Positions 31,001-48,849 of a stretch of DNA of 64,000 nt are shown piece by piece. Numbering within the stretch: the first letter of the stretch is position 1; each line of letters opens with the position of its first letter. The notes beneath the pieces were generated by a model. The model made no database searches and was not told the DNA's origin. It was given only the letters and a program-made list of their open reading frames with translations. The DNA lies in the NCBI RefSeq assembly GCF_000875975.1, contig NZ_BAWW01000005.1:186001-250000 (forward strand). The letters run 5' to 3'. Origin of the DNA: Parachlamydia acanthamoebae. Lineage in GTDB: Bacteria > Chlamydiota > Chlamydiia > Chlamydiales > Parachlamydiaceae. The translations under genes and the position numbers were made by a program.

Positions 31001-31414
31001 GGTAGTATGGGAGAATAGCGCATTATAATTTTTGCTTGTAATGACAAGCTTTGGTGAAATATCCTCTAAAAGCATATTGATACGAGCTTTTGGCCAATTA
31101 GGATCTACAGGAACAAATATCGCACGGGATTTAAAAATAGATAGTGTTGATATGACTAAAAAAGGGCTTTTCTCTAGGCAGATAACGATTCTATCACCCT
31201 TTCCAACATCTCGTTTGTCAATTAAAAAGCGAGCAAAACAATTGCTAAGGTCATTTATTTCCTGAAAAGTTTTTGATTGGCCCGAGTGATGTATTGCTAT
31301 ATTATTTGGAGATTGGGAAACTTGCTTTTCAATTAACAAGTTAATTGTTTCTTCTTCTGGAAAATCGTGGCAGCTGGTAGATGTCAGAATGGATAAATTT
31401 GAAGCTAACTGCAT
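22061..31414 (-). CDS. Non-ribosomal peptide synthetase, A-T-C-A-T-C-A-T-C (starter, Gly, unknown)
   Basis: About 3117 aa, three modules. By eye: A1 (SSGTTGKPKG about residue 180), T1 (GNSIKC, about 577), C1 (HHLIADEWS, 764), A2 (FTSGSTGEPKG, 1224), T2 (GGHSLNA, 1614), C2 (HHVGIDRRS, 1792), A3 (YTSGSTGKPKG, 2247), T3 (GGHSLLA, 2634), C3 (HHIIMDGKS, 2820, at the C-terminus). Since A1 has no condensation domain before it, this protein starts the chain. Codes: A1 IEWEDSRSFK, lacking the Asp235 that holds the amino group of alpha-amino acids; A2 DILQLGMIWK, almost the known glycine code DILQLGLIWK; A3 DAWNMIGIGK, not recognised. The frame is open to 31438, but AGGTG lies 5-6 nt before the ATG at 31414, so I prefer that start, within the end of the methyltransferase gene. 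The A1 substrate is the main unknown. Confidence 0.92.
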   Translation of the reverse strand: MQLASNLSILTSTSCHDFPEEETINLLIEKQVSQSPNNIAIHHSGQSKTFQEINDLSNCFARFLIDKRDVGKGDRIVICLEKSPFLVISTLSIFKSRAIFVPVDPNWPKARINMLLEDISPKLVITSKNYNALFSHTTPIFFVEDIQVNSTSYMPQNLNLEQSRHDLAYLIYSSGTTGKPKGVLGEYLNILARFTWSWKDFPFQFNEVCVFAAALGTIESLWAMFGPLAKGIPLVIPEENDLKDCVSFVKLLNFYKVSRIELVPSYLKLLLFQYPNLLALLPNLNLWDLSGEILDRETAFKFFSSGGFKSNVRLINRMGASEASSFLFHEVLENHLTDQKIPVGKPCPNTTIYILDDNLNPVEKGCIGELCITGPRLVRGYFNDENLTSCKFVKNPFESSYQYSSKLYKTGDLVKLNQEGLVEYVGRKDFQIKIHGFRVNLNEIEDFLKEHSRVLDAIVLPLEEKLSAFVIIDANSKDFEQESLALRKYLIKKLPLFAVPGEFIFLEKFPVSQSGKLDRSALRNELYNPVVPRENYSPPETEIQKKLCLIWEQVLGYNQIGIDDAFIHLDGNSIKCVKILMSVNSLYSVQLKFSEFFVLQTIRKLSELIAERKTLEQYEIIKADLKYSSNTIPLSSGQKQLVFLEEVQAAPGLYNLFSAFEIEGIFKINLFEESLRSVLEEQFFLRAKLVKSKNEYFFEIQPVDKIFPDLGIQSVASRDEINQAALQPFELYKGPLFRTQLFSVNGALFLLFTVHHLIADEWSLQILYKNLSQHYGSLKLLNNCEEKIKNLYSDSIDRAEGDLNFWKKYLKDASSSISLPYDYLRPEKLSYLGNQCRIELPKGLSAKIYSFLQREKGTLFSTMLAAVQVFLHKWTGQNDLNIGIPSTLRSNKEFDEIVGYFVNALPVRSVYKPLQSFKDTYNEYRKLFYELKNNHGVSFDSIVRAISKTNQLNMNPIFQVWFSVEEAEDRVELEFDGILTKRYEIKNPYSKFDLSFLVKSAKGNLSIEIEYSSELFEETTITGLLERLQIFLDHLFSNNSVMLADVKLLQEEEEKEFVGQMTHISSETIKAVETMVKNITKLSSDKIAVIDQNGNYTYSYLNKRSDELAAYFFKSFPLQSVIAVSLSPSIFFIELILGLMKAGMCFLPIDTSIPKVRTNLMIRQSKALALISHTPGEMEECFILTQKAIESSLKSNDHVDFLEIPNSFKAYTIFTSGSTGEPKGVVLTRGNLANALIHLNKTLGVNANSSFLLNTMVSFDIFLLEMLSPLIAGGTVVIPDNKEHKDGEFINELINDFQINYLQATPSNWRLLLESGFTENVGLNLLCGGEKLDQSLANKLVKMGKSFWNMYGPTETTIWSSCKRIQENESISAGIPIGNTSILVLDSFGQIQPPGSIGEIVIGGNSVGEGYLYNPSLSAEKFVCNPFPLSESFVVVYKTGDKGFINKNKEIVCLGREDRQVKIHGHRIELDEIENVIRQCEYVHYAHVSTYIDFGGFQEVIAYIEPNKPLNFTVEALEVKLKDLLLSTLPKYMSPNRLIILEKFPLTPNKKIDFSKLPLPNELLEKKEQSLPPKTEFEKKIAQMWSEVLGQEEISPKDNFFNIGGHSLNAIRLRNLLAEKLNIELPAGILFQYPTIESFQDYIQNKYFKVYLPFSCEYKGELSEEQKGMLFMQKLYPHLPIYNISFPFIVKNMDKGIAKEAFKEMLKKHDSLNSVLEEHSNGTFLKPYNGPLPYKESISVNVEELSFQEASRLFDLTTEPPIRLLQSQIDQNTYLLQYTFHHVGIDRRSFYIFFKELNEFLSTGISKAKQFFQYADYVKWQRSQAWHDKQEAGLNFWKEYLESTTDLLKLPLDKQRPQNPSLKMSICSILLDASISSTVERFATNAKSTPFLVFLSLFFSSLYRHTYQNDIVAGTPVSMRHRREFEDILGCFVNVIPLRMHFNLKTSFLDVFENFKASFPDLLEHAQVPLSHIIRNMNGNNNSTIHPLFQVMFVFEERQNINLKIGNASFIPLACHTNFSAFDLIFIIKEKTSGYGLEIHYAQDLFEEKTVIDLLHRTEFLFNQLIKNPANPICFSCLLKEDEKKKLLLTMNNNSVPYPKKYIHAFFEENVRLQPDAIALVYEDKSITYHMLNVRSNQLAYRLIKKGVTLETFVGICMERSIEQIIALLAVLKAGGCFIPLDPSFPKERIDYIIEETNLELIIDSNFYETEFETIDLEKESNVDFPISERNLAYVIYTSGSTGKPKGVLIEHVGLCNLVGSVTKAENLKIRPGTRILQLASTTFDASIWDWIGALSLGATLIMREKSYLVPGNILADTLNEFKINNFNIPAGALELLPKQEIPSVQVMMVIGDVCSKKTVEYWSEKCLLYNGYGPTECTIGCTMKRMHSHQSHTDIGKALPNIQTYILDSLGELVPEGVIGELHIGGDCLARGYLKDASLTSEQFVIHAFSNDKTNAPRLYKTGDLVRYHHGSIEFIGRADNQYKIRGFRVDTSEIISILSEQPLVEKAMIRLFEKAENQKILYAYVVLNASFGKHKDILHTLKLILKKTLPAFMIPQDVLSIDKIPLTKNGKIDYGKLPLPVSQPQQEFQEEDPILNEITSLFKEVLGSNAISYDSDFFDNGGHSLLAGQLLFQLNERFKVNLLLKDLFDASTARSIGNLIKKHQNQDRLTSHPIKKVLDDTVDLTSAQNRLWILEVLFEQRGVYNVPLAFEVSNALNISALELSLAKVIERHENFRVRIFSEDGSPRQEILHSQYCKLQVQKICLKKGENLREICQKLSAIPFEMENEILIRCFLIDGMDDKILLFVFHHIIMDGKSINIFINDLNEFYNQSAQPLKQSIVYRDYIAFQNHYIAEEKKLELQNFWKNYLDNCVPILELPLDCPRVKQPYRANRHQFMLGKEQTQKIKKLSSQFKMTLNITCLSFFQFFLNKITMQNDVIVGTPFTLRRSEDWNKVMGYFINSLPIRTFFDRIQNFQDLMINVRESVLEVEENKDLQLDQIIKLLEIPRLPHITPLIQVWYVFENQGDYKTLDFMGTTFSHFSVPSLYAKFDLMLIVEERDNELSFIFEYAEELFLKETIEKWSSHFIHLLRDVLDCPSKNLKNYDFELQEMSFLL

Positions 31415-32412
31415 TTTGCACCTATAATTAAAGACCAATTTCCAAAATAGTTGACTACCTCAATTTCACCAAAACCAGCTGTTTTTAGCAGTTCAACAAT
31501 TTCAAGCTTGCTAAATTGCTGCCCCTCTGTCCAATAAAGCATTTTTATGTTATAAGCTGCTGTAAGCTCCGGACCTGTCTTGTCATCGTTAAAAAGCATT
31601 TCATTAAGAATGATGCGACCGCCTTTCTTCAGAGACTCATAACTTTTCTTTGCAAGAAATAGACATTTTTCAGGATTCCAATCGTGAAAAATGTCTGAAT
31701 AAAAGTGGATAGATCCTTCGGGAAAGGGGTCCTCCCACATATTTATGGGATAACCTATAATGCGATCTTCTAACTTATTTTTTTTTAGATTCTCTAAAGC
31801 ATAAATTAAGATTTCTTTGAAATCACATAAAATAGCTTTAATAGGATGGGCTTGGCAAACCGAAATTGCATGTACACCAGATCCACAACCAATATCGATC
31901 AATACATCTTGCTCTGTCGTTTTGAGGTATTGCGGCCATGAATGGGCAGAATTGTAACTTTTACGATGCATGGAATTTGTAAAACTTCTACCATGCTCTT
32001 CTTTTTTATTAGATTCAAATAAATGTTCACCTAAATAAACTTGTGGCTTATTTGTTTTGACAGCCATTTCGATGGCTTTTAAGGTGAATTGATCACTTTG
32101 ATCATTATAGAGATCAAAAACATCCCCGAAATAACTAGGACTATTTTGACTTAAATATAGCCTTCCAATACTACTCAAAGTGTAATATCCATGATTACAG
32201 CTAACAAGATTGAAAGCTCCCGCGGCAGATAAAACGGCTTGTGCTGGTCTCAATTCAATGTTTAGCCGTTGAGCTATTTCTTCAATAGGCAGAGATTCTT
32301 TTTCAAGTAAATGGAATAATCCTATTTTATGGGCTGTTAAAACAGCATAACCGATAAAAATAGATCCTGTAATCTTATGCAACATCTCATCGCTCTCATA
32401 GCTAATAAGCAT
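31405..32412 (-). CDS. SAM-dependent O-methyltransferase (small-molecule type)
   Basis: A 335-aa methyltransferase of the plant-COMT/hydroxyneurosporene type: an N-terminal winged-helix dimerization domain (about residues 10-95; GLFHLLEKESLPIEEIAQRL), then a Rossmann SAM domain with DIGCGSGVHAISV (about 173-185), an acidic stretch, and the catalytic-base region FYSDIFHDWNPEKC (about 235-248). Such enzymes methylate hydroxyls on aromatic or polyketide scaffolds. It is first in the NRPS operon and overlaps the next gene, so it is part of the pathway. A natural partner is the flavin hydroxylase encoded divergently at 33831: hydroxylation, then O-methylation of an aromatic unit. That pairing is inference. 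No N-methyltransferase domain is present in the NRPS proteins. Confidence 0.85.
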   Translation of the reverse strand: MLISYESDEMLHKITGSIFIGYAVLTAHKIGLFHLLEKESLPIEEIAQRLNIELRPAQAVLSAAGAFNLVSCNHGYYTLSSIGRLYLSQNSPSYFGDVFDLYNDQSDQFTLKAIEMAVKTNKPQVYLGEHLFESNKKEEHGRSFTNSMHRKSYNSAHSWPQYLKTTEQDVLIDIGCGSGVHAISVCQAHPIKAILCDFKEILIYALENLKKNKLEDRIIGYPINMWEDPFPEGSIHFYSDIFHDWNPEKCLFLAKKSYESLKKGGRIILNEMLFNDDKTGPELTAAYNIKMLYWTEGQQFSKLEIVELLKTAGFGEIEVVNYFGNWSLIIGAKCS

Positions 32413-35981: not shown

Positions 35982-36557
35982 ATGAGCATCAATGAAATGG
36001 ACATAACTTATCAAGTGGTTATGAATAGTGAAGAGCAGTATTCCATATGGCCAACTTATAAAGAAGTGCCCCAAGGTTGGAATAATGTAGGGAAGCAAGG
36101 TACAAAACAAGAATGCCTCGATTTTATTAGTAACACATGGGTTGATATGAGACCACTTTCTGTAAGAAAATGGTTGGAAGAAAATGGAGAAAAAATCGCT
36201 GCACATCGCTTAAAGATAACTGGAGATCTGAACAAAGAAAATAGTACTAAAAAATTTTCAAGCCCTACAGTTGAATTTCTTTGTGAGAGGAAACAAGTCG
36301 TGTGTATTCTTGAAAAATCACCAATTGATTTTCAAAATTCCATTAACAAAGGATTTGTTTATTTTAACTTCCCCAATACTAAAGGCGGAACATCTGTGAG
36401 AGTAAGAATAGATAATGCGGTTGCAGATTCTTCTGATTCTATGCATTTAGAAGGTTCATTCATATTGGATTATGTACATTTAAAATGTATTGCTGAAGTT
36501 TCTCTATCAAATTTAAAAGGCTCTGCATTTTTGCATATTCAAAAAATCAATAACTAA
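35982..36557 (+). CDS. MbtH-like protein with an extra C-terminal domain
   Basis: Residues 1-65 are a clear MbtH-like domain: YQVVMNSEEQYSIWPTYKEV, then PQGWNNVG, CLDFISNTW and DMRPLSVRKWLEENG match the family signature (NxExQxSxWP, PxGW, CL, W(T/V)D(I/M)RPxS). MbtH proteins bind adenylation domains and help them fold and work. Members are usually about 60-80 aa, but this one is 191 aa. Residues 70-191 form an additional, apparently beta-rich soluble domain (VYFNFPNTKGGTSVRVRIDN, FILDYVHLKCIAEVSLS) that I do not recognise. AGGAG precedes the ATG. It is the last gene of the tailoring operon and converges with the phosphopantetheinyl transferase gene (11-nt overlap). It probably serves the A domains of this cluster. 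Confidence 0.85.
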   Translation: MSINEMDITYQVVMNSEEQYSIWPTYKEVPQGWNNVGKQGTKQECLDFISNTWVDMRPLSVRKWLEENGEKIAAHRLKITGDLNKENSTKKFSSPTVEFLCERKQVVCILEKSPIDFQNSINKGFVYFNFPNTKGGTSVRVRIDNAVADSSDSMHLEGSFILDYVHLKCIAEVSLSNLKGSAFLHIQKINN

Positions 36558-37254
36558 GGTGCTGTTTTTCATCATATTCGTACATTTTTATGTTAAAAGA
36601 AGGCGAGGCTATGGCAACCGCTCCCACATATTCTTTGTATCCAATATCTACTTTATGTATACAAAATTGGTTATCTTTAATATTTACAAATTTAGGATAT
36701 TCTAAAGGATTAAAAGGAATTTCAACCTCATTTGGGGATATATAGAAACCAGTTCCCAATGCCTTCAAAATAGCTTCTTTACATGCCCATGCATTATAAA
36801 AAGCTCTTTTTTTAGAAGAGCTTTTTATGGTCGTATAAGTTTTTTTCTCCAAATTAGAAAATATATACTCTTCAACCTCTGCACAGATGAAATTCTCTTT
36901 TATTAATTCAATATCTATTCCAATTTCCATCAACTTTGCAAATCCATAAACAACCATATTTCCTGAATGAGAAAGGTTGAATTGCAAACTTTCACCATTA
37001 TCTATGTAAGGCTTTCCCCAGCTTCCATAACGAAAATAGATTTGATCATTTTTTATACTCAAGTACTGGGTAAGCAATCTACGCAAGATCCCTCGGGTAA
37101 CCACGTACTGTTTTTTCAAATAATCAAAAGCAAACTGGCTGGCTCTAAATTTTTCCTGTTCATCAAGTAGGTTATAGTAAATATTTGGCTCTAGAATTTT
37201 ATCTAGATTTACGATCCAAATTTGCACTTCATTACGATTGAGTTGGACTAGCAT
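36547..37254 (-). CDS. Sfp-type 4'-phosphopantetheinyl transferase
   Basis: Loads the phosphopantetheine arm onto the T domains of the NRPS proteins. The 235-aa length is right for the Sfp group. Motifs visible: KPYIDNGESLQFNLSHSG (about residues 82-99), the Mg-binding GIDIE (about 112-116), and FYNAWACKEAILKALGTGF (about 152-170), the WxxKEAxxK motif. It closes the minus-strand operon that starts with the free-standing NRPS module; the gap to the aldolase gene upstream is 15 nt. Housekeeping AcpS is much smaller and different, so this one is dedicated to secondary metabolism. Confidence 0.93.
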   Translation of the reverse strand: MLVQLNRNEVQIWIVNLDKILEPNIYYNLLDEQEKFRASQFAFDYLKKQYVVTRGILRRLLTQYLSIKNDQIYFRYGSWGKPYIDNGESLQFNLSHSGNMVVYGFAKLMEIGIDIELIKENFICAEVEEYIFSNLEKKTYTTIKSSSKKRAFYNAWACKEAILKALGTGFYISPNEVEIPFNPLEYPKFVNIKDNQFCIHKVDIGYKEYVGAVAIASPSFNIKMYEYDEKQHLSY

Positions 37255-37269
37255 GTAAACAACTATTCG

Positions 37270-38310
37270 TTACAGAGTCATTTTTTTTATGGTCTCTAGG
37301 ATTATTTCCACATCATCCTGTGATATATGATAATGTATAGCAGCTCTAATTCTCCCACCGAGGCAGCTCATCCTTATTGAATGTTGTTTTAGCTCAGCTA
37401 AAAACTCATGATTCGTTTTTTCGGTTTCTTTTAATTCAAAGTAGACCATGTTAGTCTCTACTTCATTTAGATCACAGTGTATCCCCTTTATCTTAGTTAA
37501 TCCAGCAGCTAACTGCTTAGCAAGCTTATGATCTTCTGAAAGCCTAGGAATCATTTCTTCTAAGGCAACTAAGCCGGCTGCTCCTAGATAGCCAATTTGG
37601 CGCATTCCTCCTCCTAGCATTTTTCTAAGTCGTCGCACTTCATCGATGAAAGATGCCGACCCTACAACAACAGAACCAGCTGGAGCCGCAAGACTTTTTG
37701 ACAAACAAAATTGCACAGAATCGGCAAATGAAGCTATTTGTAGTGCAGAAATACCCAAAGCAATTGATGCATTAAAAATCCTTGCCCCATCCATATGGAT
37801 ACTTAAATGATTTTTTTTAGAAAAATTGTAAACATCTTTTAAATAGCTTAAAGGTAAAACCCGTCCTCCTCTTAAATTGTGTGGATTTTCTATACAGATA
37901 AGCCTGGTTCTGGCAAATTGGAAATCGCTCAAATCCTTTAGGGAATTTTCTAAATTTTTAACACTTAAGGTTCCATCTTGTTCTGTTTTAACAGGATGAT
38001 AAGCAACCCCTCCAAGTACGCTTGCACCTCCTGCTTCAAACAAAAAAATATCACTTTCATCACCAACTAATGCTTCATAACCTCTTGGACAATGGGCCAA
38101 AATAGAGGTCAGATTCGCCATAGTCCCACTTGGTAGAAAACAGGCATTTTCTTTACCTAAAATCTCGGCGGATCTCTTTTCAAGAGCATTAATCGTTGGG
38201 TCTTCTCCGTAAACATCATCTCCTGTAATGGCGTGCTGCATTGCATAAATCATAGAAGGTGTGGGTTGAGTTACTGTGTCACTGATCAAATCTATTTCTT
38301 TTTTTTTCAT
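37270..38310 (-). CDS. Low-specificity L-threonine aldolase family protein
   Basis: A 346-aa PLP enzyme that interconverts threonine or allo-threonine with glycine and acetaldehyde, or joins glycine to other aldehydes. It starts with the family's DLISDTVTQPTPSM. The PLP-binding lysine is in CLSKSLAAPAGS (about residue 205), and HMDGARIFNA (about 173) is present. It lies in the operon with a threonine kinase and a PLP beta-replacement enzyme, so it may supply threonine or a beta-hydroxy amino acid for the peptide. It could equally provide glycine for the Gly module. Gaps to both neighbours are 12-15 nt. Confidence 0.9.
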   Translation of the reverse strand: MKKKEIDLISDTVTQPTPSMIYAMQHAITGDDVYGEDPTINALEKRSAEILGKENACFLPSGTMANLTSILAHCPRGYEALVGDESDIFLFEAGGASVLGGVAYHPVKTEQDGTLSVKNLENSLKDLSDFQFARTRLICIENPHNLRGGRVLPLSYLKDVYNFSKKNHLSIHMDGARIFNASIALGISALQIASFADSVQFCLSKSLAAPAGSVVVGSASFIDEVRRLRKMLGGGMRQIGYLGAAGLVALEEMIPRLSEDHKLAKQLAAGLTKIKGIHCDLNEVETNMVYFELKETEKTNHEFLAELKQHSIRMSCLGGRIRAAIHYHISQDDVEIILETIKKMTL

Positions 38311-38322
38311 TATGCTTTCACC

Positions 38323-38952
38323 TTAGCTTTTTAAGATTAGTAAGAGAGCAAAAATGCACATCGAGATCCCTGTAACCATTTCGAGAAACCTCATGTTAAA
38401 TTTTTCAAAAAAAACCTTTTTACTATAAGACACCAAAAAAGCTAGCCCGATAAACCACATCGAGTTTAAAAATGCGATCATTCCAACAAAAATGAGAATT
38501 CCATAATAAGCATTAAAATCTTCCAAATAGCTAGGCCCTAAACTTAAGTAAAACAAACCAATATAGGGATTAAATAAATCTAGAAAAAATCCCGATTGAA
38601 AGGCTGAAAAGCCATGAAAGATCTCATTCTCCTCGTCGTTATTATCTAAGCTGCATTTGGTTTTTCTTAAAGCAGTATAAACGAGAGTTATTCCAAAGTA
38701 GCTAATATAAAAAGCACCTAAAACTTTTATCATCCAAAAATATTGGCTAAAACTTGCAATCAAGGTATTGGCAGCTAAAGTCGCAAATATAGCATGCAAA
38801 GTAATTGCAGAAGCTATCCCCAAAGAAGATAAAGCTCCAAACTTCAAACCAAACTTCAATGTGTTTCTAAAAATCAAAGCTGTGTTCGCCCCTGGAATGA
38901 TAAACACCAATAAATGAACAAATGCTAACGATAATGCTTTTTGTAAAGCCAT
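38323..38952 (-). CDS. LysE/RhtB-type amino acid exporter
   Basis: A 209-aa inner-membrane protein with about six hydrophobic segments, starting with ALSLAFVHLLVFIIPGANTALIFRNTL. The PGANT stretch and the following loop are characteristic of LysE/RhtB exporters (usually PGP or PGPN). Such proteins export amino acids or small derivatives driven by the proton gradient. In this operon it could remove a diamino acid intermediate or a finished small product and so provide self-protection. It sits between the aldolase and the ABC exporter genes. Confidence 0.85.
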   Translation of the reverse strand: MALQKALSLAFVHLLVFIIPGANTALIFRNTLKFGLKFGALSSLGIASAITLHAIFATLAANTLIASFSQYFWMIKVLGAFYISYFGITLVYTALRKTKCSLDNNDEENEIFHGFSAFQSGFFLDLFNPYIGLFYLSLGPSYLEDFNAYYGILIFVGMIAFLNSMWFIGLAFLVSYSKKVFFEKFNMRFLEMVTGISMCIFALLLILKS

Positions 38953-38968: not shown

Positions 38969-40705
38969 TTAAACTAATTCAACCTTTTTCACTTGAATAT
39001 CCCACATTTTTTTATAAACCCCATCTAGAGCAAGGAGAGTTTGATGATTACCATGCTCTACTAGGTGTCCTTCGTTTAACACAAATATCTTATCGCAATG
39101 CATGACGTGAGAGAACTTATGAGCAATAATAATAGTCGTTTTATCTCTGCAAAAGTGATCAAGATATTCTAATATTCTAGCTTCCGAATGAGAATCTAAA
39201 GAAGAAGTGACTTCGTCAAGAATAACTATCTCCGGATTTTTTAAAGCAAGGCGAGCAGCCCCAATGCTTTGTTTTTGTCCCCCCGAGAGTGAAATCCCTT
39301 GCTGTCCTATTACTGTATTATAGCCTTGAGAAGTTTGGCTAATAAATGATTCTAAGGAGAGCAATTGCGCAACACTTTTCACTTGCTCTTCTGATGCATC
39401 CGGTTTGCCATAAGAAAGATTATAGAGGAAGGTGTCATTAAATATATTTGTATTCTGTGGAATAATGCCTATATGTTTTTTCAAATCATTAACATCGATC
39501 GAGGAAATCTCTTTTCCATCGATTAAAACTTTTCCTTTCATCGGATCGCATAGTTTTAATAATAATTTTGCAATGGTTGTTTTTCCACTTCCTACCGGTC
39601 CTACAAAGCCAATTTTTTCTCCTTTATGAATTTTGAATGAAATATTTTTTAAAATTTCAGTATCTTTATAACTAAAACTCAAATTTTTAAATTCTATCGT
39701 TTCACAAAAATGCTTTAATGACTGAGAAGCTTTAGGGGGTCTTTGCACATCAAAAATGCTTAGTATAAGTTTTAAATCATTTCCTCCGCGAAAAATATTT
39801 CTAAATACTATTGCCAAAAAGCTGAGAGGATTAAAAAATTGAATCAAATATGTGTTAATTAGAACGAAATCACCTAGATTCATTTTTTTATCAACTATAT
39901 TTACGGCTGTTGAAATTGTTATAATAAAAAATCCTATGCCCAAAATTAAAAACTGAAAAATTCTTACTTTTTCTAAAAAAACTAAACTAGTAATTTCTGC
40001 CTTTTCCCTATTTTCTAAATGCTTTTTGTAATTATCTTGCTCAAGCTTTTCATTTCCGAAATATTTAACAGCCTCAAAATTCATGAGACTATCCGCTAGT
40101 TTTGCATTAACATCACCATCATAACTCTGACTTCTCTTATGAAATAAGACCGCCTTTTTTGCAGACATAACAGTGTAAACCATAAAGACCGTAAAAGTAG
40201 TTAAAAGGATAAAACCACAAAAGTAGAAGTTGTAAATTAATAAAATGCATACGGCACCGATAATTTCAATAAACGGTGGAATTGTGAAGAAAAAAAATCC
40301 CCACAGCATATTTGGTAAGGCAATTTGTGCTTTTTTTAATTTGGCTATTAACTCGCCCGTTTGGGCACTTGAATGGTATTCATAAGAAAGGGCTTGTAAA
40401 TGTTCCATGGTTTGAAGGCTTAGCCTTGAAATTAATCGTTCTGACACAGGAATCATTAAAATTTCCCTTGTAGTCAAACATAGTTGGCAAGCGATCCAGA
40501 TCATTGCATAAATAAAGCTCACCGATAACATTTCATATGAAGAAAATTCTCCATAAGCCAGCTTCACAATATTTTTTGCCTGTATCGGGAGATAAATATT
40601 TAACCCGCAGGCAATCAAAACGAATAAACACGACAAAAAGAAATAGATTCGTAATTTTGTTTCTTCTATTCGTAAAAATTCAAATTTTTTTATTGAAAAT
40701 TGCAT
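38969..40705 (-). CDS. ABC exporter, fused membrane and ATPase domains
   Basis: A 578-aa half-transporter with an N-terminal six-helix membrane domain (about residues 15-310) and an ATPase domain with Walker A GPVGSGKTT (about 371), signature LSGGQKQSIGAARL (about 479) and Walker B PEIVILDEVTSSLDS (about 500). It resembles the Atm1/HMT1 and lipid/peptide exporter groups and works as a homodimer. It overlaps the ATP-grasp/lyase gene by 16 nt and is thus part of the biosynthetic operon. It is the best candidate for product export. No peptidase domain is present, so it does not cleave a leader peptide. Confidence 0.92.
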   Translation of the reverse strand: MQFSIKKFEFLRIEETKLRIYFFLSCLFVLIACGLNIYLPIQAKNIVKLAYGEFSSYEMLSVSFIYAMIWIACQLCLTTREILMIPVSERLISRLSLQTMEHLQALSYEYHSSAQTGELIAKLKKAQIALPNMLWGFFFFTIPPFIEIIGAVCILLIYNFYFCGFILLTTFTVFMVYTVMSAKKAVLFHKRSQSYDGDVNAKLADSLMNFEAVKYFGNEKLEQDNYKKHLENREKAEITSLVFLEKVRIFQFLILGIGFFIITISTAVNIVDKKMNLGDFVLINTYLIQFFNPLSFLAIVFRNIFRGGNDLKLILSIFDVQRPPKASQSLKHFCETIEFKNLSFSYKDTEILKNISFKIHKGEKIGFVGPVGSGKTTIAKLLLKLCDPMKGKVLIDGKEISSIDVNDLKKHIGIIPQNTNIFNDTFLYNLSYGKPDASEEQVKSVAQLLSLESFISQTSQGYNTVIGQQGISLSGGQKQSIGAARLALKNPEIVILDEVTSSLDSHSEARILEYLDHFCRDKTTIIIAHKFSHVMHCDKIFVLNEGHLVEHGNHQTLLALDGVYKKMWDIQVKKVELV

Positions 40706-43359
40706 GTAGTTAATGTCTTTTTAATTTCATTTTCGAATGTTATTTTTGCCATATTCCATTTATCTTCCGCATCTTTAATCAGACTCAAAAAAATATTTAA
40801 GTTTTTTAAAGAAATTGCTATTTGTTTCCTTATGGAACTCGATGAAGGACCTCCCCCATAACAAAGGTGTTTGGAAATGTCATGCAAATAATCAAACTCG
40901 TTATGAAGGATGTTTGTTATATTCTGAAAAGGGTCTTCGTTATGTTCATAAGACTTACGTATGATATCCCCAATTTTTATATGAGCTTCTCGAAAAGAAA
41001 TAGAATCTTGCTTCATAAGCTGATTTGCAATAAAATTTGCAATCGTTAACCCCTTCTTCGATGCAGCAACCATATTAGATGCGATAGGCAAAGCATGGTT
41101 AATAACTAAAATTAGCAAATCTAAAATGTCTAAACATTCAGCCGTCATTTCTTCAATTGCATCATAAGCGGCAGACGAAACTTCGATTGAATTGCCTATT
41201 GGCACCTTATGCATTTTGATAAATGTACCAAACAAATTATTTATGACATTTGCGGTTTTGCTTTTTATTATTTCTAAAATATAGGGATTTTTTTTTTGAG
41301 GCATCATAGAAGATGAACCACAAAGACTATCCGGAAATTCAAAGAACTGGAATTCTTGTGTTGTCCATAGTTGATAATCTTGTGCAATGCGACTTATCGT
41401 GGTACACAAAGTAGCTAAAATAGATTTATAACGAAGAGCAAAATCTCTATTGGCAATAGCATCTAAAGCATTAGGAAAGGTAGATTCAAAACCAAGGATT
41501 TCTGCCACATAATCTGGAGATATAGGAATATCAGTTCCACAGCCCGCTCCAGCACCCAAAGGCGAAGTATTCAAGTATTTTTGAATACCGACTAAATCAT
41601 CAACAATCCTTTGAATGGGTGCATTTATGGCTAAAAGATAAAATGAATAATTTCCGGGAGCAGCTGGTTGATGCTGACTGTAAATTGGAAGAGGAATCTT
41701 TTCTGATAATTGTGCCTGGTTTAATAAAATTTGGCTTAGCTCTAAAATTTTATGAAATATTTCAGAATAGGAATCTCTGCATGATAAATAAAATAAGGTT
41801 GCATTAATGTCATTTCTAGATCTTGCTAAATGGTTATTCCCAACTAAGCCTATCCCAAGTTGATTTTTTAGATGCTTTTCATAAGCATAATAAGTTCCTC
41901 TAGAAAAATCTAAACTTTCAAAATGATCTTTCAAATTTTTTTTAAAATTCTGTATGACCAAAATAATTTTGTCAATTTGTGCAGAGTCTATGAGTTTATT
42001 TCTTGCCAGCATAAGAACATGCGCAAGATCAATTGATGCTATTCTATCTAATTCTTTTAGCCATTTTTCTTTATTTATTGGTGATCTGAGAATTTTTTTT
42101 ATTAAGGGATGAGGCTCTTCACCTAATCTTCCCTCTATGTTATTAATATCAATAAAGAAATGCTGAATAGCATGATCTGCGGATTTTTTTGATTCATTTG
42201 TATTCGAAGATTTTGTAATCAGATAGCCAATACGATCTCTATAATCATGGTTGATCGTAATTAAATCACCAATATTTTTTGTAAAACAAACTTCTTGAAC
42301 GTTACTGCATTTTTTTAACACTTCTTCATTCGTAAGATTTACTATTTTACCTTCATCTTTCACAACAAAAAATCTTATAGAGGCACCTTCGTATTTTAGA
42401 TTTGGAAAATTAACTTCTTGATTTGCAAATAATTTGATAATATGCTCATAAATATCAAATTGGCACGCATAAGTAATCAGCTGAGGAATCATTCCTCCAG
42501 CTAACCTTGGATTTACTTCTATCAATACAACTTGAGTTCCAGTTAGTTTAAATTCTATATGAGCAGGTCCAAAACTAAAATTTAATAGCTTCAAGACAGC
42601 TTTAATTGTGTTCCAAATATTCTCTTCAACGTCTCTTTCAAATGGAGCTGGAAAATCGTGACCCACTTCAATAAAATATTCATCATCAGACGTATGTTTA
42701 GCTGTTAGTCCTAATTCAAAATATTTATCTTTATAAACAAAAATTTCTGCAGAATATTCGGGTCCTTCAACATAAGGTTGGACTAATATGCCAGTGGAAA
42801 ATGATGTTCCATTTTCTTTGCCATCAAGCTTTAGTAATTTTAAAGCATGCTCCTGTACTTCTTGAAAATTTACACACTTTTTTACTCCCACACTTCCGGA
42901 TCCTGAAACAGGCTTTAAAATCACAGGAAAATTCAATTCATTGACTTTTTCATAAAGAATTTTTAAATCATCAATAAATAATGATTTAGGAGTTAAAAAC
43001 GAACTCTCACTTATTTTTTGGCTAAATTTGTTCTTATTTCGACAAAACTCAATGGCTAAAGGGTTATTTCCAGGAAGCCCCAAATTATCAGCAACGTATG
43101 CAGTAACTTCCATGTAGTATTCTGAGGTAGAAAAAACCCCAACTAAATTATCAATTTTTTTTAAAAAATCAAAAACAACGTCTTTATCTTTTGTATCTAT
43201 GTGAATAACATCTACACCTACTTCTTTTAAAAAAAAATATTTAGTTGGGTCACTCGTTAAAAAAACAATCTCCAATCCCATTTCTATAGCTTTATTCAAA
43301 AATAACTGTCCCGTTCCAGTTGTATTACTCTCAATAAATCCAAATTTTTTCTTATGCAT
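40690..43359 (-). CDS. Fusion of ATP-grasp ligase and argininosuccinate-lyase-like domain
   Basis: An 889-aa protein of two enzymes. Residues 1-400 are an ATP-grasp carboxylate-amine ligase: FPVILKPVSGSGSVGVKK (about 142-159), VQPYVEGPEYSAE (about 190) and VVLIEVNPRLAGG (about 275). Residues 410-889 are fumarase/aspartase-superfamily, nearest argininosuccinate lyase: HLARSRNDINAT (about 510), then GSSSMMPQKKNP (about 683), the mobile catalytic-serine loop. In the usual GYTHLQPAQP stretch this protein reads YSQHQPAAP, so the conserved His is Gln with His next to it. It overlaps the genes on both sides (8 and 16 nt), next to a PLP beta-replacement enzyme and a threonine kinase. The lyase half could release fumarate from an aspartate adduct to leave an amine, as proposed for diaminobutyrate in pacidamycin. 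Alternatively the two halves could turn a carboxylate into an amide by way of aspartate. Confidence 0.88.
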   Translation of the reverse strand: MHKKKFGFIESNTTGTGQLFLNKAIEMGLEIVFLTSDPTKYFFLKEVGVDVIHIDTKDKDVVFDFLKKIDNLVGVFSTSEYYMEVTAYVADNLGLPGNNPLAIEFCRNKNKFSQKISESSFLTPKSLFIDDLKILYEKVNELNFPVILKPVSGSGSVGVKKCVNFQEVQEHALKLLKLDGKENGTSFSTGILVQPYVEGPEYSAEIFVYKDKYFELGLTAKHTSDDEYFIEVGHDFPAPFERDVEENIWNTIKAVLKLLNFSFGPAHIEFKLTGTQVVLIEVNPRLAGGMIPQLITYACQFDIYEHIIKLFANQEVNFPNLKYEGASIRFFVVKDEGKIVNLTNEEVLKKCSNVQEVCFTKNIGDLITINHDYRDRIGYLITKSSNTNESKKSADHAIQHFFIDINNIEGRLGEEPHPLIKKILRSPINKEKWLKELDRIASIDLAHVLMLARNKLIDSAQIDKIILVIQNFKKNLKDHFESLDFSRGTYYAYEKHLKNQLGIGLVGNNHLARSRNDINATLFYLSCRDSYSEIFHKILELSQILLNQAQLSEKIPLPIYSQHQPAAPGNYSFYLLAINAPIQRIVDDLVGIQKYLNTSPLGAGAGCGTDIPISPDYVAEILGFESTFPNALDAIANRDFALRYKSILATLCTTISRIAQDYQLWTTQEFQFFEFPDSLCGSSSMMPQKKNPYILEIIKSKTANVINNLFGTFIKMHKVPIGNSIEVSSAAYDAIEEMTAECLDILDLLILVINHALPIASNMVAASKKGLTIANFIANQLMKQDSISFREAHIKIGDIIRKSYEHNEDPFQNITNILHNEFDYLHDISKHLCYGGGPSSSSIRKQIAISLKNLNIFLSLIKDAEDKWNMAKITFENEIKKTLTTCNFQ

Positions 43360-44377
43360 TCAAAACCTTTTGCAATAGCCTTCTGTTCCATTCGATATAA
43401 TTCCAATCTAATGACGACGAATCAATCTCCGATACTTTTTCAATTTTTATAGGCTCGATTTTTTTAAAGTCGCATCCTGATTTTTTTATCCATTCATCAT
43501 CGTATACATTTGAGGAATAGCGGTATCCCATATCTGCGGAGATAAAAACAATTTTCTTTTTTTCTTGTTGCTGAGATACCCATTTTGCAACTTGGTAACA
43601 GGCACCTGTAGTTGGCCCGGCATAAAGAGCTGAACGAGAATATAAATCTCTTGTTGCATGAAACGCCTGTGCAGCAGAAATCCAGTGAATTTGGTCAAAA
43701 AGCTGATGCAACAGATTTTTAGGCATAATGGAATTCCCTAATCCGCGTAGAATGCGATGATTATTCTTAAGCCCAAAAAGAGTGCTACCAAATGTGTCAA
43801 CTCCGATTAAAGAAATAGATGGATTGTATTTTCTTAGCTGCATGATTGTACCACATGAGGAGCTACCAGAGCCCACAGAAGCGACCAAAGTGATATCTTC
43901 CCCCAAACTTTCTATAATATAATCTCCAAAGCTAGCGTAGGCTTTTAAATGATCTGGGTTATCATATTGTTGAGGCCAAAAAAAAGTAGGATTTTTTGAA
44001 AGGTGATCATTCAAAGTTTTAAGCCTTGCAACTTGGTGTCCATTGATAGCATCTGATACAATTTCTACTTTTCCACCCAAATATTCAAGCTGCCGAATTA
44101 AACTTTTGTCCATTACAGGATCACTAATGATATGAAAAGGAAAATGATTTTCGGCGCATATAATAGCAAGTCCCAAAGCATAAGTTCCGCTGGACGTTTC
44201 AATAATGGTTGACCCCTTTTGAAGAGACCCATCGCGAATAGCTTTTTCAATAACATATTTAGCCGGCAACAATTTCATTAACGAAAATGATGCTAAAATT
44301 AAATTTTCTTCAATCTCTATCAAATTGGGTAAACATATCGAATCAGAATATCGTTTAGTTATTTTCAAAGCGCTCAC
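43352..44377 (-). CDS. Cysteine-synthase-like PLP enzyme (beta-replacement)
   Basis: A 341-aa fold-type II PLP enzyme. Visible family elements: LPAKYVIEKAI (about residues 37-47) with the likely PLP lysine, ETSSGTYALGLA (about 59-70) that corresponds to the substrate loop TSGNTG, GSGSSSCGTI (about 168-177) for the PLP phosphate, and GPTTGACYQVA near the C-terminus. Enzymes of this group replace a beta leaving group (acetate or phosphate) with a nucleophile. Between a threonine-kinase-like gene and a lyase gene, the likely reaction is displacement of phosphate from O-phosphothreonine by an amine such as aspartate. It overlaps the downstream fusion gene by 8 nt. SbnA-type 2,3-diaminopropionate chemistry is the nearest alternative. 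Confidence 0.85.
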   Translation of the reverse strand: MSALKITKRYSDSICLPNLIEIEENLILASFSLMKLLPAKYVIEKAIRDGSLQKGSTIIETSSGTYALGLAIICAENHFPFHIISDPVMDKSLIRQLEYLGGKVEIVSDAINGHQVARLKTLNDHLSKNPTFFWPQQYDNPDHLKAYASFGDYIIESLGEDITLVASVGSGSSSCGTIMQLRKYNPSISLIGVDTFGSTLFGLKNNHRILRGLGNSIMPKNLLHQLFDQIHWISAAQAFHATRDLYSRSALYAGPTTGACYQVAKWVSQQQEKKKIVFISADMGYRYSSNVYDDEWIKKSGCDFKKIEPIKIEKVSEIDSSSLDWNYIEWNRRLLQKVLNA

Positions 44378-44383
44378 CTTTAA

Positions 44384-45232
44384 TTAAAGATCATATATTT
44401 CATAATTGTAACCCATACTGCAAACAACATTAGCTAGTTCTCTTATTTTTTTTATAAACATGGGATGTCTTTTATCGACCAAAAAGCCAATATAAGTTCC
44501 ACTGTGAGCAACAACAACCCCTGGCAAGCTTAATTTTGCAGAAATTTCATTAAATTCTTTAAATAGCTTTTTAGGATTAAACTGTTGATTAAGCCCCCCA
44601 CTTTGAGTAGCTACATGGCCAATAATAGATATGTCATTTTTAACTACGGCTTTTTCTATGACTGCATGCAAATAGTCATAAGTTTCTTTGATTTTTTTGC
44701 CATAAGTTCGTGAAACTCTATTATATTCTAGAGTATCAATTGCACCCCCTTCATCAACCCCTAAAATAACCGCATCTTTTAATTTGCCAAGGACTTTATT
44801 CAACTTGACTTGTTTATAATAGTAGGAGACTATTCCCGGATACATTACCCCATCAGTTGGTTCAATCCCTCTGATTGCATCTTCAATATCAAGAGAGTTC
44901 AGGTTTAAAGTGTAAGCATTGCTTAATACTTTAGCCACAGCAACCAAATCAGCTGAAGAACTTCCTAATCCCTTACCAACAGGAAAATGAGTTTCTACTG
45001 AAACAGCTCCTCCCTTTTTTAATTGATATTTTTCGCAAATTTTATCGACCATCATTTGGCATTTATTTTTATCTGGATTTGACACCTCAATTTTTTTGAG
45101 TGAATCGTCAAAAACAAAACTCGCTATGGAATATATCTTAACTGGTGAGGTGATTAAGAAAGGTTGATCGTCACATCCAACTCCTTGCAAAAACTCACCA
45201 AATACACCATTTGAATTAGCTTCAAAAATCAT
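44384..45232 (-). CDS. GHMP kinase, PduX-like (L-threonine kinase)
   Basis: A 282-aa GHMP-superfamily kinase. The N-terminus GVFGEFLQGVG (about residues 9-19) followed by ITSPVKIYSIASF and the ATP-binding PVGKGLGSSSAD (about 83-94) match the PduX/L-threonine kinase pattern (GSCGELxQG, PxGKGMASSTAD) more than homoserine kinase. PduX makes O-phospho-L-threonine for cobamide synthesis. No cobamide gene is nearby, and the neighbours are the PLP beta-replacement enzyme (6 nt away) and a diamino-acid-type NRPS module. I infer that phosphothreonine is an activated precursor for 2,3-diaminobutyrate. Homoserine or another hydroxy amino acid is possible. Confidence 0.83.
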   Translation of the reverse strand: MIFEANSNGVFGEFLQGVGCDDQPFLITSPVKIYSIASFVFDDSLKKIEVSNPDKNKCQMMVDKICEKYQLKKGGAVSVETHFPVGKGLGSSSADLVAVAKVLSNAYTLNLNSLDIEDAIRGIEPTDGVMYPGIVSYYYKQVKLNKVLGKLKDAVILGVDEGGAIDTLEYNRVSRTYGKKIKETYDYLHAVIEKAVVKNDISIIGHVATQSGGLNQQFNPKKLFKEFNEISAKLSLPGVVVAHSGTYIGFLVDKRHPMFIKKIRELANVVCSMGYNYEIYDL

Positions 45233-45237
45233 AAACT

Positions 45238-48200
45238 TTAATCCATTTTACTATAGCTTTCAATTTGCAAAGAAAGTTCTTTAATAGTTGGATACTGAAA
45301 CAAAAAAGTCGAAGGCATATCAATTCCAAATTCTTTCCGAATTTGTGCCATTATTTTCATTCCTTGCAGGGAATGCCCACCGATTTTGAAAAAATGATCT
45401 TGAATTCCAATTTTAGGTAAATTTAGCGTAGTAGACCATAAATCAACCAGATAGTTCTCTAAAATTGTTTCTGGATGACAATATTGGTTTGTGCGTATAT
45501 GTTCATGACTAGGCTTGGGAAAATTTTTCTTATCTAATTTCCCATTAAATAAAAGCGGAAACTGCTGAAGAAAGACTACATCATTTGGAATCATATACTC
45601 AGGCAACATATGACTTAATTCATTTTTTAGAAATTTTACAAATTCTGAAAACTTTTCTTCATCATAAGTATGATGATTGTATAAAATTAAATAGGCAATT
45701 AACCTTTTCTGACCAACGAGATCCTCTCTAATAATGGCTACAGCTTGTGCAACTTCCTTCAAAGTTAATAAAGCACCTTCAATTTCGCCAATTTCAATAC
45801 GATGTCCACGGAGCTTAACTTGGCTATCCTTTCTTCCTAAGTAATCTAAGACGCCATCATGCTGAAAAACTCCCATATCTCCTGTTCTATAAAATCTCCT
45901 ACTAGGAGAAGGTAAAAAGGGATCAGGTAAAAAAGATGCCGCTGTTTTAGCTGGATCATTTAAATACCCCCTGCCCACACCATCGCCACCTATGTAAATC
46001 TCACCCTTACAACCTATGGGCAAAGGGTCCATAAATTTATCCAAAACATATAGCTGTGAATTCATGACAGTACCACTTACAGGCATAATATCAGGATGTG
46101 TATGATAATTTTCCTTTGTCAGGATAAAGTGTGTTGCATCATCAGAAACTTCAGTTGCTCCGTAACCATTCATAATATTGACATTTGGATATATTTTGAA
46201 CCAACGCTTACATATATGCTGATTAAGCCCTTCTCCAGTTAAAAAAAGCCATTTTACACATTGAAAGGCCTGTTCTCTACCATTTTCAAGTTCGTCTAAA
46301 ATAACCATCATATGGCTAGGAACTAATTGTAAAATTTGAGGTGAATGCCTTTCCACAGAATTGACAAGAAATTCAGGTTCACACGCGTCCTGTCCAACAA
46401 AAACACTTACCGTTCCACCTACAAATAAAGGAGTGATAAATTGCCAAATGGATATATCAAAACTTTGAGTTGCCGTTTGAGCGATCTTATTATTTTTTGA
46501 TACGCACAAATCCCGTATCTTTGCATAAGAATGATTTAGCATCCCTTGATGCTCAATAACAGCCCCTTTAGGATTGCCTGTGGAACCCGATGTGTAAATG
46601 ATAAAAGCTACATGATTTCCACATGCAGGATATGTTTCAGGAAACGTTTCCGTTTCTTCAAATAAACATTCAACATTAATAACATTTGCCAGTTTCCCAC
46701 AATCTTCAAGGGCTTTTTTGCTAAATTTTTCATCTGTAATAACCACTTTGGCTTTAGAGTCAAGCAGTATAGTTTCAACGCGTGCTTGTGGCAGGCCTGT
46801 ATCGATAGGCAAATAAATAGCATTAATTTGCCAAATGCCTAGCAAAACCATCCAGTAATTCATATCTCTAGTCATAAATACCGCGATAACATCTTGTTGA
46901 CCGACTTCCAGCTTGAGCAAGTTAGCTCCAATCTTTTTTGAGATTTCCCACAACTCTCCGTAGGTGACATGATGCTCACTATTTTCCATTGCAATGCAGT
47001 CAAAGTACTTACCGACATTATTTTTGAAAACATCCATGAATGGCTTATCCTTAGGGTATTCCATTTCAGTTTGATTCCACTTCTTTACCATCAAATCACT
47101 TTCTTCGTTCATTAATAAACAAATTTGTGAAATTTTCATTTCTTTCGCAAAAGCGTTTTTGCTAAATTCTAAGAAACGTTGTAACAGCAGTCTGAATGGG
47201 ACGTTTTCTTTTTCGCTTTGAAAGCGATGAGAAGACCAAAATAAAGTCATACTGAGAGTCTGAGGATTAAGAGATATAATGACAGGAAAAGCCTTCTGAA
47301 CAATATCAAGTACTTTTTCGCCAATAAAAAGGATTATGGGTGTGTGCAGGTCTAGATGAATTCCGTAATTTCTTTGAACAATATCTTTTGACAACGATAA
47401 AATTTCATTGGCAAAATCATTTTTTATCAAAGATTTGACTTCTGCAATAGTCATATCTGGATTAAGCGGATAAAAAAAAGGAATCCCAGAAAAAACGTAG
47501 GATTCGATTTCATCTGTTAATCCAAGAGTTTCTTGATTAAGAATATTTAGGGTGAATTCCTCATAGTTGTTTAACTTAAAAAGATAGACATAAAGTAAAG
47601 CAACAACTTTTTCTACAAATTCATCTTTGAAAAAATCTAATGAAATACTCATTTGATGATAATTAGAATTGTTTGAATTGTGTTTACCACTATCCAAAAA
47701 AGGAATATCTAAAGATTTTTTTTCGAGAAAATTGCGGCATAAATTGCTTTCAGAGCTTCTGATCACATTTAAATTTTTAAAACTTGATTTCTGTTCACCT
47801 AATTTATTCCCAATGTGAATTTGATGTTTTTCGCATAAATTTTTCAGATTACATTCTTTATTGTCAAAATCTACGATGTGACTAATCTGTACATTTTTAT
47901 CTCTTGTCGAAACAATTAATCCGCCTTCAATTATTTCCAAGAGTCTTCCAGACCCAACGGTCGAATGAGCAAGACAACTCTTTATTTCTTTAACAATAAA
48001 TAAAGAATTCCCAAGGACAATTTTGGGCACATGAAACGGATTTTGATAATCTCCATAATTGCAAGCTCTAAAAAGATCCAAAATCTGCTCTGACGTACTA
48101 TCAAAATCGATTATTCCATGATTCAAAAAATGCTGAGGAATAGCATTGTCGTTCTTATGAAAGGAGGGCTCTCCACTACAATTCATCGTATAATCTTTTA

Positions 48201-48714
48201 TCAATTCTATATATTGAATCATTTCCATGAATGACTCTAAGGCAATCTCAAGACCTTTCATAGATAGTGTTAAAGCCGAATCTTCTTTCTCAACAGAGTA
48301 TTTTTTTTGAAAAATAATCTTTCCGGCATACAAATCCCCCTCACAAGTATGCCAAGTAATCCCGCTTTTTTTTTCAGAGTTTAAAATTACCAAAGAAGGA
48401 GCATACATATGTGGATAATTTGGTAATAAAGAATTTTGACAGTGTATGCGAAGAAACGGCATGCTATAAAAAACTTGAGGAATGTAAACAACGGGATTTA
48501 GCAAAAGCACGCAGCTTGCAAAAGATAAATCATTTAAATAATCTAAGTATTTTTTATACTGCGAAAAATACGGAATAGCATTTTCATGAGCAATTTGAGC
48601 AATTTGAGTATCACTTGAATAAATGCATGAAATACGACGTTTTTGGCTTAAAAGTTGTTTTAGGCATTGAAGGCAAAAATTGCCATTTCCAACCATACTG
48701 TAGACTCGTTCCAT
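45238..48714 (-). CDS. Free-standing NRPS module: degenerate formyltransferase-A-T
   Basis: About 1158 aa. The first ~200 residues resemble the formyltransferase domain found at the front of some NRPS proteins (MVGNGNFCLQCLKQL, SGITWHTCEGDL, ALTLSMKGLEIALESF). Next comes an unassigned segment of about 300 residues, then an adenylation domain (YTSGSTGNPKG, residue ~710) and a T domain (GGHSLQ, residue ~1114). There is no condensation or thioesterase domain. The A code I read is DIWQFTGDD(K), similar to DIWELTADDK, known to me for 2,4-diaminobutyrate. Three catalytic formyltransferase residues appear replaced (see findings). The frame is open from a GTG at 48837, but that start has no ribosome-binding site and adds 41 residues without family similarity, so I prefer the ATG at 48714, which has GAGAAG upstream. 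It is first in the operon with the diamino acid genes. Confidence 0.87.
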   Translation of the reverse strand: MERVYSMVGNGNFCLQCLKQLLSQKRRISCIYSSDTQIAQIAHENAIPYFSQYKKYLDYLNDLSFASCVLLLNPVVYIPQVFYSMPFLRIHCQNSLLPNYPHMYAPSLVILNSEKKSGITWHTCEGDLYAGKIIFQKKYSVEKEDSALTLSMKGLEIALESFMEMIQYIELIKDYTMNCSGEPSFHKNDNAIPQHFLNHGIIDFDSTSEQILDLFRACNYGDYQNPFHVPKIVLGNSLFIVKEIKSCLAHSTVGSGRLLEIIEGGLIVSTRDKNVQISHIVDFDNKECNLKNLCEKHQIHIGNKLGEQKSSFKNLNVIRSSESNLCRNFLEKKSLDIPFLDSGKHNSNNSNYHQMSISLDFFKDEFVEKVVALLYVYLFKLNNYEEFTLNILNQETLGLTDEIESYVFSGIPFFYPLNPDMTIAEVKSLIKNDFANEILSLSKDIVQRNYGIHLDLHTPIILFIGEKVLDIVQKAFPVIISLNPQTLSMTLFWSSHRFQSEKENVPFRLLLQRFLEFSKNAFAKEMKISQICLLMNEESDLMVKKWNQTEMEYPKDKPFMDVFKNNVGKYFDCIAMENSEHHVTYGELWEISKKIGANLLKLEVGQQDVIAVFMTRDMNYWMVLLGIWQINAIYLPIDTGLPQARVETILLDSKAKVVITDEKFSKKALEDCGKLANVINVECLFEETETFPETYPACGNHVAFIIYTSGSTGNPKGAVIEHQGMLNHSYAKIRDLCVSKNNKIAQTATQSFDISIWQFITPLFVGGTVSVFVGQDACEPEFLVNSVERHSPQILQLVPSHMMVILDELENGREQAFQCVKWLFLTGEGLNQHICKRWFKIYPNVNIMNGYGATEVSDDATHFILTKENYHTHPDIMPVSGTVMNSQLYVLDKFMDPLPIGCKGEIYIGGDGVGRGYLNDPAKTAASFLPDPFLPSPSRRFYRTGDMGVFQHDGVLDYLGRKDSQVKLRGHRIEIGEIEGALLTLKEVAQAVAIIREDLVGQKRLIAYLILYNHHTYDEEKFSEFVKFLKNELSHMLPEYMIPNDVVFLQQFPLLFNGKLDKKNFPKPSHEHIRTNQYCHPETILENYLVDLWSTTLNLPKIGIQDHFFKIGGHSLQGMKIMAQIRKEFGIDMPSTFLFQYPTIKELSLQIESYSKMD

Positions 48715-48849
48715 ATTTCTTCTCATATTATTGGGTAAATCCGGATGTTTTAAAACAAAAATAAAAAATTTTCCTCTTTCTAAAGCAAAAGGTATATTTT
48801 TATTTTTTTTTATATTTATCGTCCATTTCAAATTCACAAAATTTAAACT

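Follow-up and report, generated by a model that had tools for sequence, protein, structure and literature searches.

Architecture of the locus

The window is a stretch of 64,000 nucleotides of Parachlamydia acanthamoebae DNA. Four genes on its minus strand, with 5–6 bp gaps or overlaps between them (45238–48837, 44384–45232, 43352–44377 and 40690–43359), encode in the order of transcription a 1,199-residue protein with adenylation (A) and peptidyl carrier (PCP) domains, a GHMP kinase, a PLP enzyme and an 889-residue protein. Downstream follow two exporters, of the ABC and LysE types, then a GntG-family aldolase and a phosphopantetheinyl transferase. The gene coordinates that a sequence-only reading had assigned across 40690–48837 all hold. 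The features of the locus are as follows.

45238–48837, minus strand: 1,199-residue protein with formyltransferase-like domain, linker, A domain and PCP (PF00551, PF02911, PF00501, PF13193, PF00550)
47803–48726, minus strand: formyltransferase-like domain (aligned to four Fmt proteins of chlamydiae and to the fusions of Legionella and Rhizobium)
47143–47685, minus strand: linker that joins the formyltransferase-like domain to the A domain, without a Pfam match
45508–47037, minus strand: A domain, code DIWQFTGDDK, assigned to the 2,3-diamino acid class (codes, clade, control Actinoplanes genomes)
45271–45453, minus strand: PCP domain, site IGGHSL (PF00550, E 4.5e-15)
44384–45232, minus strand: PduX-like GHMP kinase, predicted to act on L-threonine (or allo-threonine) (Pfam, PduX alignment)
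43352–44377, minus strand: SbnA/CysK-like PLP enzyme, predicted to catalyze beta-replacement on phosphothreonine (Pfam, curated models, alignment)
42160–43359, minus strand: ATP-grasp/L-amino-acid-ligase half (LAL_C2) of the 889-residue protein (Pfam, curated models, alignment)
40690–42159, minus strand: argininosuccinate-lyase-like half of the 889-residue protein (PF00206, curated models, alignment)
38969–40705, minus strand: MsbA-type ABC exporter, same operon (Pfam, curated models)
38323–38952, minus strand: LysE-family amino-acid exporter, same operon (Pfam)
37270–38310, minus strand: GntG-family PLP aldolase (threonine-aldolase-like), same operon (NF041359, 455 bits)
36547–37254, minus strand: 4'-phosphopantetheinyl transferase (Pfam)
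22061–31438, minus strand: NRPS 1, A-PCP-C-A-PCP-C-A-PCP-C, codes IEWEDSRSFK, DILQLGMIWK and DAWNMIGIGK
15360–22064, minus strand: NRPS 2, A-PCP-(E-like)-C-A-PCP-TE, codes DMTKIGEVGK and DMTKVGEVGK

Window positions 35982–36557 encode an MbtH-like protein that is extended by ~140 residues at its C-terminus. All condensation-domain matches of the 3.0 Mb genome fall in the NRPS locus at the cassette, and the NRPS codes suggest a product that contains Gly and two residues resembling Asp or Asn. In A domains, Asp235 binds the alpha-amino group of the substrate. NRPS 1 begins with an A domain (window 29800–31438, code IEWEDSRSFK) that is without Asp235; its substrate may be a keto, a hydroxy or an aryl acid in place of an alpha-amino acid. 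A monooxygenase and an O-methyltransferase are encoded near this domain. Biosynthetic gene clusters that include NRPSs are known from Chlamydiota (PMC9666466), thus the phylum alone is no surprise.

The A-PCP protein

An A domain is encoded beside the biosynthetic enzymes, yet its earlier description as free-standing is incomplete, since it follows a degenerate formyltransferase-like domain and a linker and precedes a PCP. Alignment with Fmt proteins shows HCQ in place of N-x-H and YAG in place of D-x-G, such that the first gene lacks the catalytic motifs of an LgrA-type formylating initiation module. The formyltransferase-like domain is probably inactive, and formylation of the loaded residue was rejected because these catalytic residues are lost. 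Formyltransferase-A fusions of Legionella and rhizobia keep N-x-H (L134 12010–16242, L135 2379–6554 and L136 7989–17695). The Legionella and Rhizobium fusions also align with a stretch similar to the linker, which is possibly the remnant of a C domain. The Pfam scan identified no TE domain in the protein. SolG of the solanimycin pathway, which has been presented as a regular serine module that includes a C domain, scored highly against the first gene and was set aside, as the match covers the A-PCP part only.

The cassette enzymes

The kinase contains a GHMP N domain (Pfam, E 4e-11) and aligns with Salmonella PduX over 264 residues, almost the whole length, with 22% identity and an E value of 3e-15. 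A profile of the cassette kinases scores PduX at 103 bits, and other GHMP kinases of the PDB at 30 bits or less.

The PLP enzyme matches PALP (Pfam, E 5e-33), and its best curated model is SbnA. The score of 197.4 bits is below the cut-off of 349.95 of the SbnA equivalog TIGR03945. The PLP lysine is retained, as are the equivalents of SbnA Arg132 and Tyr152, which take part in phosphoserine selection (PMC12414870). The equivalent of SbnA Ser185 is a glycine throughout the cassette PLP enzymes.

The lyase half of the 889-residue protein matches PF00206 (E 1.5e-32) and retains the catalytic serine loop SSSMMPQKKNP and the SRND motif; its argH score (TIGR00838) is 237.4 bits against a cut-off of 279.5. 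In all five GRASP-ASL fusions the T-H motif of the lyase is changed to S-Q, which places a glutamine at the position of the catalytic histidine. Speculatively, this change might suit an amine leaving group.

The first 400 residues of the same protein form an ATP-grasp with an L-amino-acid-ligase C-terminal domain. Residues 4–881 match the ATP-grasp-ASL fusion subfamily NF002563 (PRK02186) with 775.8 bits, above the cut-off of 625, and the typical ATP-grasp catalytic residues are conserved in the cassette proteins according to the alignment. The sequence-only reading had recognized the kinase, the PLP enzyme and the lyase-like domain as a trio. Profile matches confirm the three families, which recur together in 52 loci; however, the set consists of four enzymes, and the ATP-grasp revealed by the LAL_C2 and NF002563 matches had been missed.

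Distribution of the cassette

A scan of named genomes with the kinase alignment yielded 80 loci, to which plasmid and genome loci were added. Kinase, PLP enzyme, ATP-grasp and lyase occur together in 52 loci from several phyla, a co-occurrence far beyond chance. Of these, 5 loci (chlamydiae and rhizobia) have the ATP-grasp joined to the lyase, 17 have it joined to the PLP enzyme and 30 encode it separately. We read it as a component of the predicted pathway because a lyase without an ATP-grasp in reach occurs only in L028 and L054, which are truncated or split loci. The cassette has spread among actinomycetes, bacilli, rhizobia and chlamydiae, and no Dab (2,3-diaminobutyrate) cassette from Chlamydiota was found in the literature searched. 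Homologues of the GntG-family aldolase, with 45–54% identity, adjoin the cassette in ~20 loci of bacilli and actinomycetes and so recur as its fifth partner in these groups.

The cassettes of the three chlamydial loci make up a single clade (support 0.999) that is sister to the rhizobial cassettes (1.0) and lies next to the friulimicin clade. The rhizobial plasmid operons, the nearest relatives, share the ATP-grasp-lyase fusion and the S-Q motif with the chlamydial locus and, unlike it, have no NRPS or A domain alongside; examples are L011 8797–13637 (Mesorhizobium japonicum pMLa) and L146 5878–10700 (Sinorhizobium meliloti pEm1132b). A Sulfuriferula nivalis plasmid (L144 3966–8692) encodes all four enzymes together with a second ATP-grasp, PhzF and a desuccinylase-like gene, without an NRPS, and this locus is a possible pathway to a small Dab-containing peptide. 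Many cassette loci of Bacillota contain no DIWQ-type A domain within 10 kb, therefore it may contribute to two or more products in this phylum. In Streptomyces (L046, L060, L061, L064, L067, L068, L073, L078 and others) the kinase is found beside a divergent PLP enzyme on the opposite strand. Lyase and ATP-grasp are absent from these loci, which apparently represent a different pathway that uses the same kinase family.

The code of the A domain

The code DIWQFTGDD of the earlier reading was reproduced and is extended here to DIWQFTGDDK. All 29 A domains that match D[IV]W[QE]x[TN]xDD fall in one exclusive clade (support 0.917) that spans three phyla and also includes the codes DIWEITADD and DIWEINADD. 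Within the kinase-centered set the association of code and cassette is modest (Fisher p of 0.013 per A domain and 0.054 per locus) because few loci are without the cassette.

As a control, the window A domain was searched against 68 Actinoplanes genomes, and the best matches form two main groups. The code DVWELTADD, of the 2,4-diaminobutyrate (2,4-Dab) type, occurs in two genomes, both without the kinase. The codes DIWQSTADD and DIWQSTTDD occur in three genomes that contain the kinase cassette and in three that are without the kinase. In the latter three, one of which carries DIWQSTTDD, the A domain adjoins SbnA and SbnB homologues that both score above the curated cut-offs (L179 13317–15375, L182 5680–8089 and L183 4668–7934). 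These clusters possibly direct the synthesis of laspartomycin-like peptides with 2,3-diaminopropionate (Dap). Two codes depart from the pattern, DIWEVAMDD in the fourth kinase-bearing genome (G163) and DIWEVTADD in G188, thus the code rule is not perfectly strict. None of five Actinoplanes genomes scored above the cut-off of TIGR00709, the model for diaminobutyrate aminotransferase, which makes this model unusable as a marker of 2,4-Dab supply.

Because Q278 codes accompany either the kinase cassette or SbnA/SbnB, and neither genome with DVWELTADD carries the kinase, Q278 is read as a marker of 2,3-diamino acids made by either pathway, and the kinase cassette as the marker of the threonine-derived one. 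The resulting rule for reading clusters is that Q278 with D330-D331 indicates a 2,3-diamino acid and that E278, in DVWELTADD, goes with 2,4-Dab; under this rule the supply genes distinguish Dab from Dap. The likeness to the 2,4-Dab code DIWELTADDK that had been drawn earlier is accordingly abandoned in favor of the DIWQ-T-DD class, which is present also beside SbnA/SbnB. DVWQMIGDDK is a published Dab signature, associated with beta-hydroxylation (PMC12283262).

Proposed pathway and alternatives

We consider it likely that the operon converts threonine to a 2,3-diamino acid, for which Dab is the foremost candidate, and loads it on its own PCP for the adjacent NRPS. The PduX-like kinase would generate O-phosphothreonine, or phospho-allo-threonine, perhaps by way of the neighboring aldolase. 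The SbnA-like PLP enzyme would expel the phosphate as the amino group of aspartate joins the beta carbon, the lyase domain would free fumarate to leave Dab, and the A domain would activate Dab and transfer it to the PCP. We infer the kinase, PLP and lyase steps, with phosphothreonine, aspartate and fumarate as their reactants and products, from the sequences. The identity of just 22% between the kinase and PduX, and the replacement of the lyase histidine by glutamine in the fused clade, weigh against this pathway. No threonine synthase scored over its cut-off in this genome, compared with a match in 14 of 14 control genomes. The aldolase may supply threonine or allo-threonine from glycine and acetaldehyde, and may in this manner set the stereochemistry of Dab. 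If the pathway is correct, it provides a predicted, testable residue for an NRPS product of Chlamydiota, a phylum noted for its obligately intracellular lifestyle.

The ATP-grasp is superfluous in this simple chemistry. No ATP-grasp was found next to the A domains of SbnA/SbnB type in Actinoplanes, which would tie the enzyme to the threonine route and not to loading. Given its fusion to the PLP enzyme in some lineages and to the lyase in others, its step is probably located between theirs. We put forward, tentatively and at somewhat less than even confidence, that the threonine route is an ATP-dependent pathway of four enzymes, in which the ATP-grasp is obligatory and an aminoacylated or amidated intermediate passes from the PLP enzyme to the lyase. 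If so, the three-step logic of phosphothreonine formation, displacement by aspartate and fumarate release is incomplete. The ATP-grasp ligase thus regularly accompanies the Dab route; the literature searched, mostly non-subscription papers, yielded no description of an ATP-grasp in Dab biosynthesis.

The same enzyme gives rise to the alternative that survives best, although we regard it as unlikely: the product would be different or further processed, in that the ATP-grasp joins Dab or the aspartate adduct to another amino acid, or amidates a carboxylate with aspartate as the nitrogen donor, and the A domain loads the outcome. The ligase-type C-terminal domain and the retained ATP-grasp residues are consistent with such a reaction, as are the presence of the enzyme in nearly every cassette, including those of rhizobia without an NRPS, and its absence beside Dap-type A domains. 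Nonetheless, friulimicin contains plain 2,3-Dab despite the same ATP-grasp in its cluster, and the same code occurs beside SbnA/SbnB, which make plain Dap.

It is less probable still that the kinase phosphorylates serine and that the remaining enzymes make Dap. A Dab route needs a dedicated threonine-type kinase, whereas the Dap route needs none, since phosphoserine comes from primary metabolism. The relation of the PLP enzyme to SbnA and the occurrence of the same code class beside SbnA/SbnB would suit Dap. However, the PLP enzyme scores below the SbnA cut-off and is missing the Ser185 equivalent, the kinase is related to PduX and no counterpart of it was found in the SbnA/SbnB Actinoplanes genomes, and the friulimicin product contains Dab.

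We give very little weight to 2,4-Dab, the residue suggested by the comparison with DIWELTADDK. Six of the nine code positions are common to DIWELTADD, and DIWEITADD and DIWEINADD belong to the same A-domain clade, but SbnA-type enzymes yield beta-substituted products, and the E278 code DVWELTADD is found in kinase-less Actinoplanes genomes, as opposed to the Q278 codes that accompany the kinase cassette or SbnA/SbnB. The residue proposed earlier is thus sharpened, with support from the codes, to 2,3- rather than 2,4-diaminobutyrate. A kinase that merely acts in the PduX role in cobalamin metabolism beside unrelated genes, as its homology to PduX might imply, is scarcely credible, being already contradicted by the tight operon and by the same three partners in 52 loci.

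Comparison with known systems

The uridyl peptide antibiotics of the pacidamycin type, with which the locus had been compared earlier, share the proposed 2,3-Dab logic as it has been described; friulimicin is the nearest characterized cluster among those compared by sequence. An npsG homologue has been proposed for DABA in mureidomycin (PMC4572928); the searched portions of the mureidomycin and sansanmycin papers contain no gene table for Dab enzymes. The SbnA/SbnB pathway to Dap of staphyloferrin B has the SbnA-like PLP enzyme in common with the window, and its code class, in Actinoplanes, is the same. In place of an SbnB-type dehydrogenase, the window operon contains the kinase and the predicted fumarate-releasing lyase.

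The search of 17 cassette-bearing genomes identified no methylaspartate mutase clearly adjoining the cassette; in the Actinoplanes genome G191 the kinase is encoded 2 kb from one. The locus of G191 encodes in a row the PLP enzyme, the lyase, the ATP-grasp, an A(DIWQSTADD)-PCP-TE protein and the kinase. Its downstream NRPS codes correspond to Asp, an A-less module, Pip, MeAsp, Asp, one split domain, Asp, Gly, one domain without assignment, a Val-like residue and Pro, where the split domain lies between fetched loci and was excluded from the code order. This module order fits friulimicin, and in part on this basis we infer that G191 is Actinoplanes friuliensis. Position 2 of friulimicin is (2S,3R)-Dab, and that of laspartomycin is Dap, where the PstA homologue is LpmA (PMC7690785). 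PstA, an A-T-Te protein, acts in trans for a CT module that has no A domain of its own (PMC9113097).

The friulimicin-type cluster and the window have all four cassette components in common; the kinases are 35% identical, the PLP enzymes 39%, the ATP-grasps 32% and the lyases 35%. In both, the cassette neighbors its cognate A domain, and the two A domains belong to one clade and to the DIWQ-T-DD code class. The earlier proposal that substrate supply and substrate code point to one residue is borne out by this cluster, which joins the cassette with its cognate A domain. In the window, unlike the friulimicin-type cluster, the ATP-grasp and lyase are fused, the lyase carries S-Q instead of T-H, and the operon additionally encodes an aldolase and a LysE exporter. 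The window A protein further differs from PstA by the formyltransferase-like N-terminus, which appears dead. As it has no TE, and no A-less module to be served in trans is seen in the window NRPSs, the window represents a variant, and not a copy, of the friulimicin loading arrangement.
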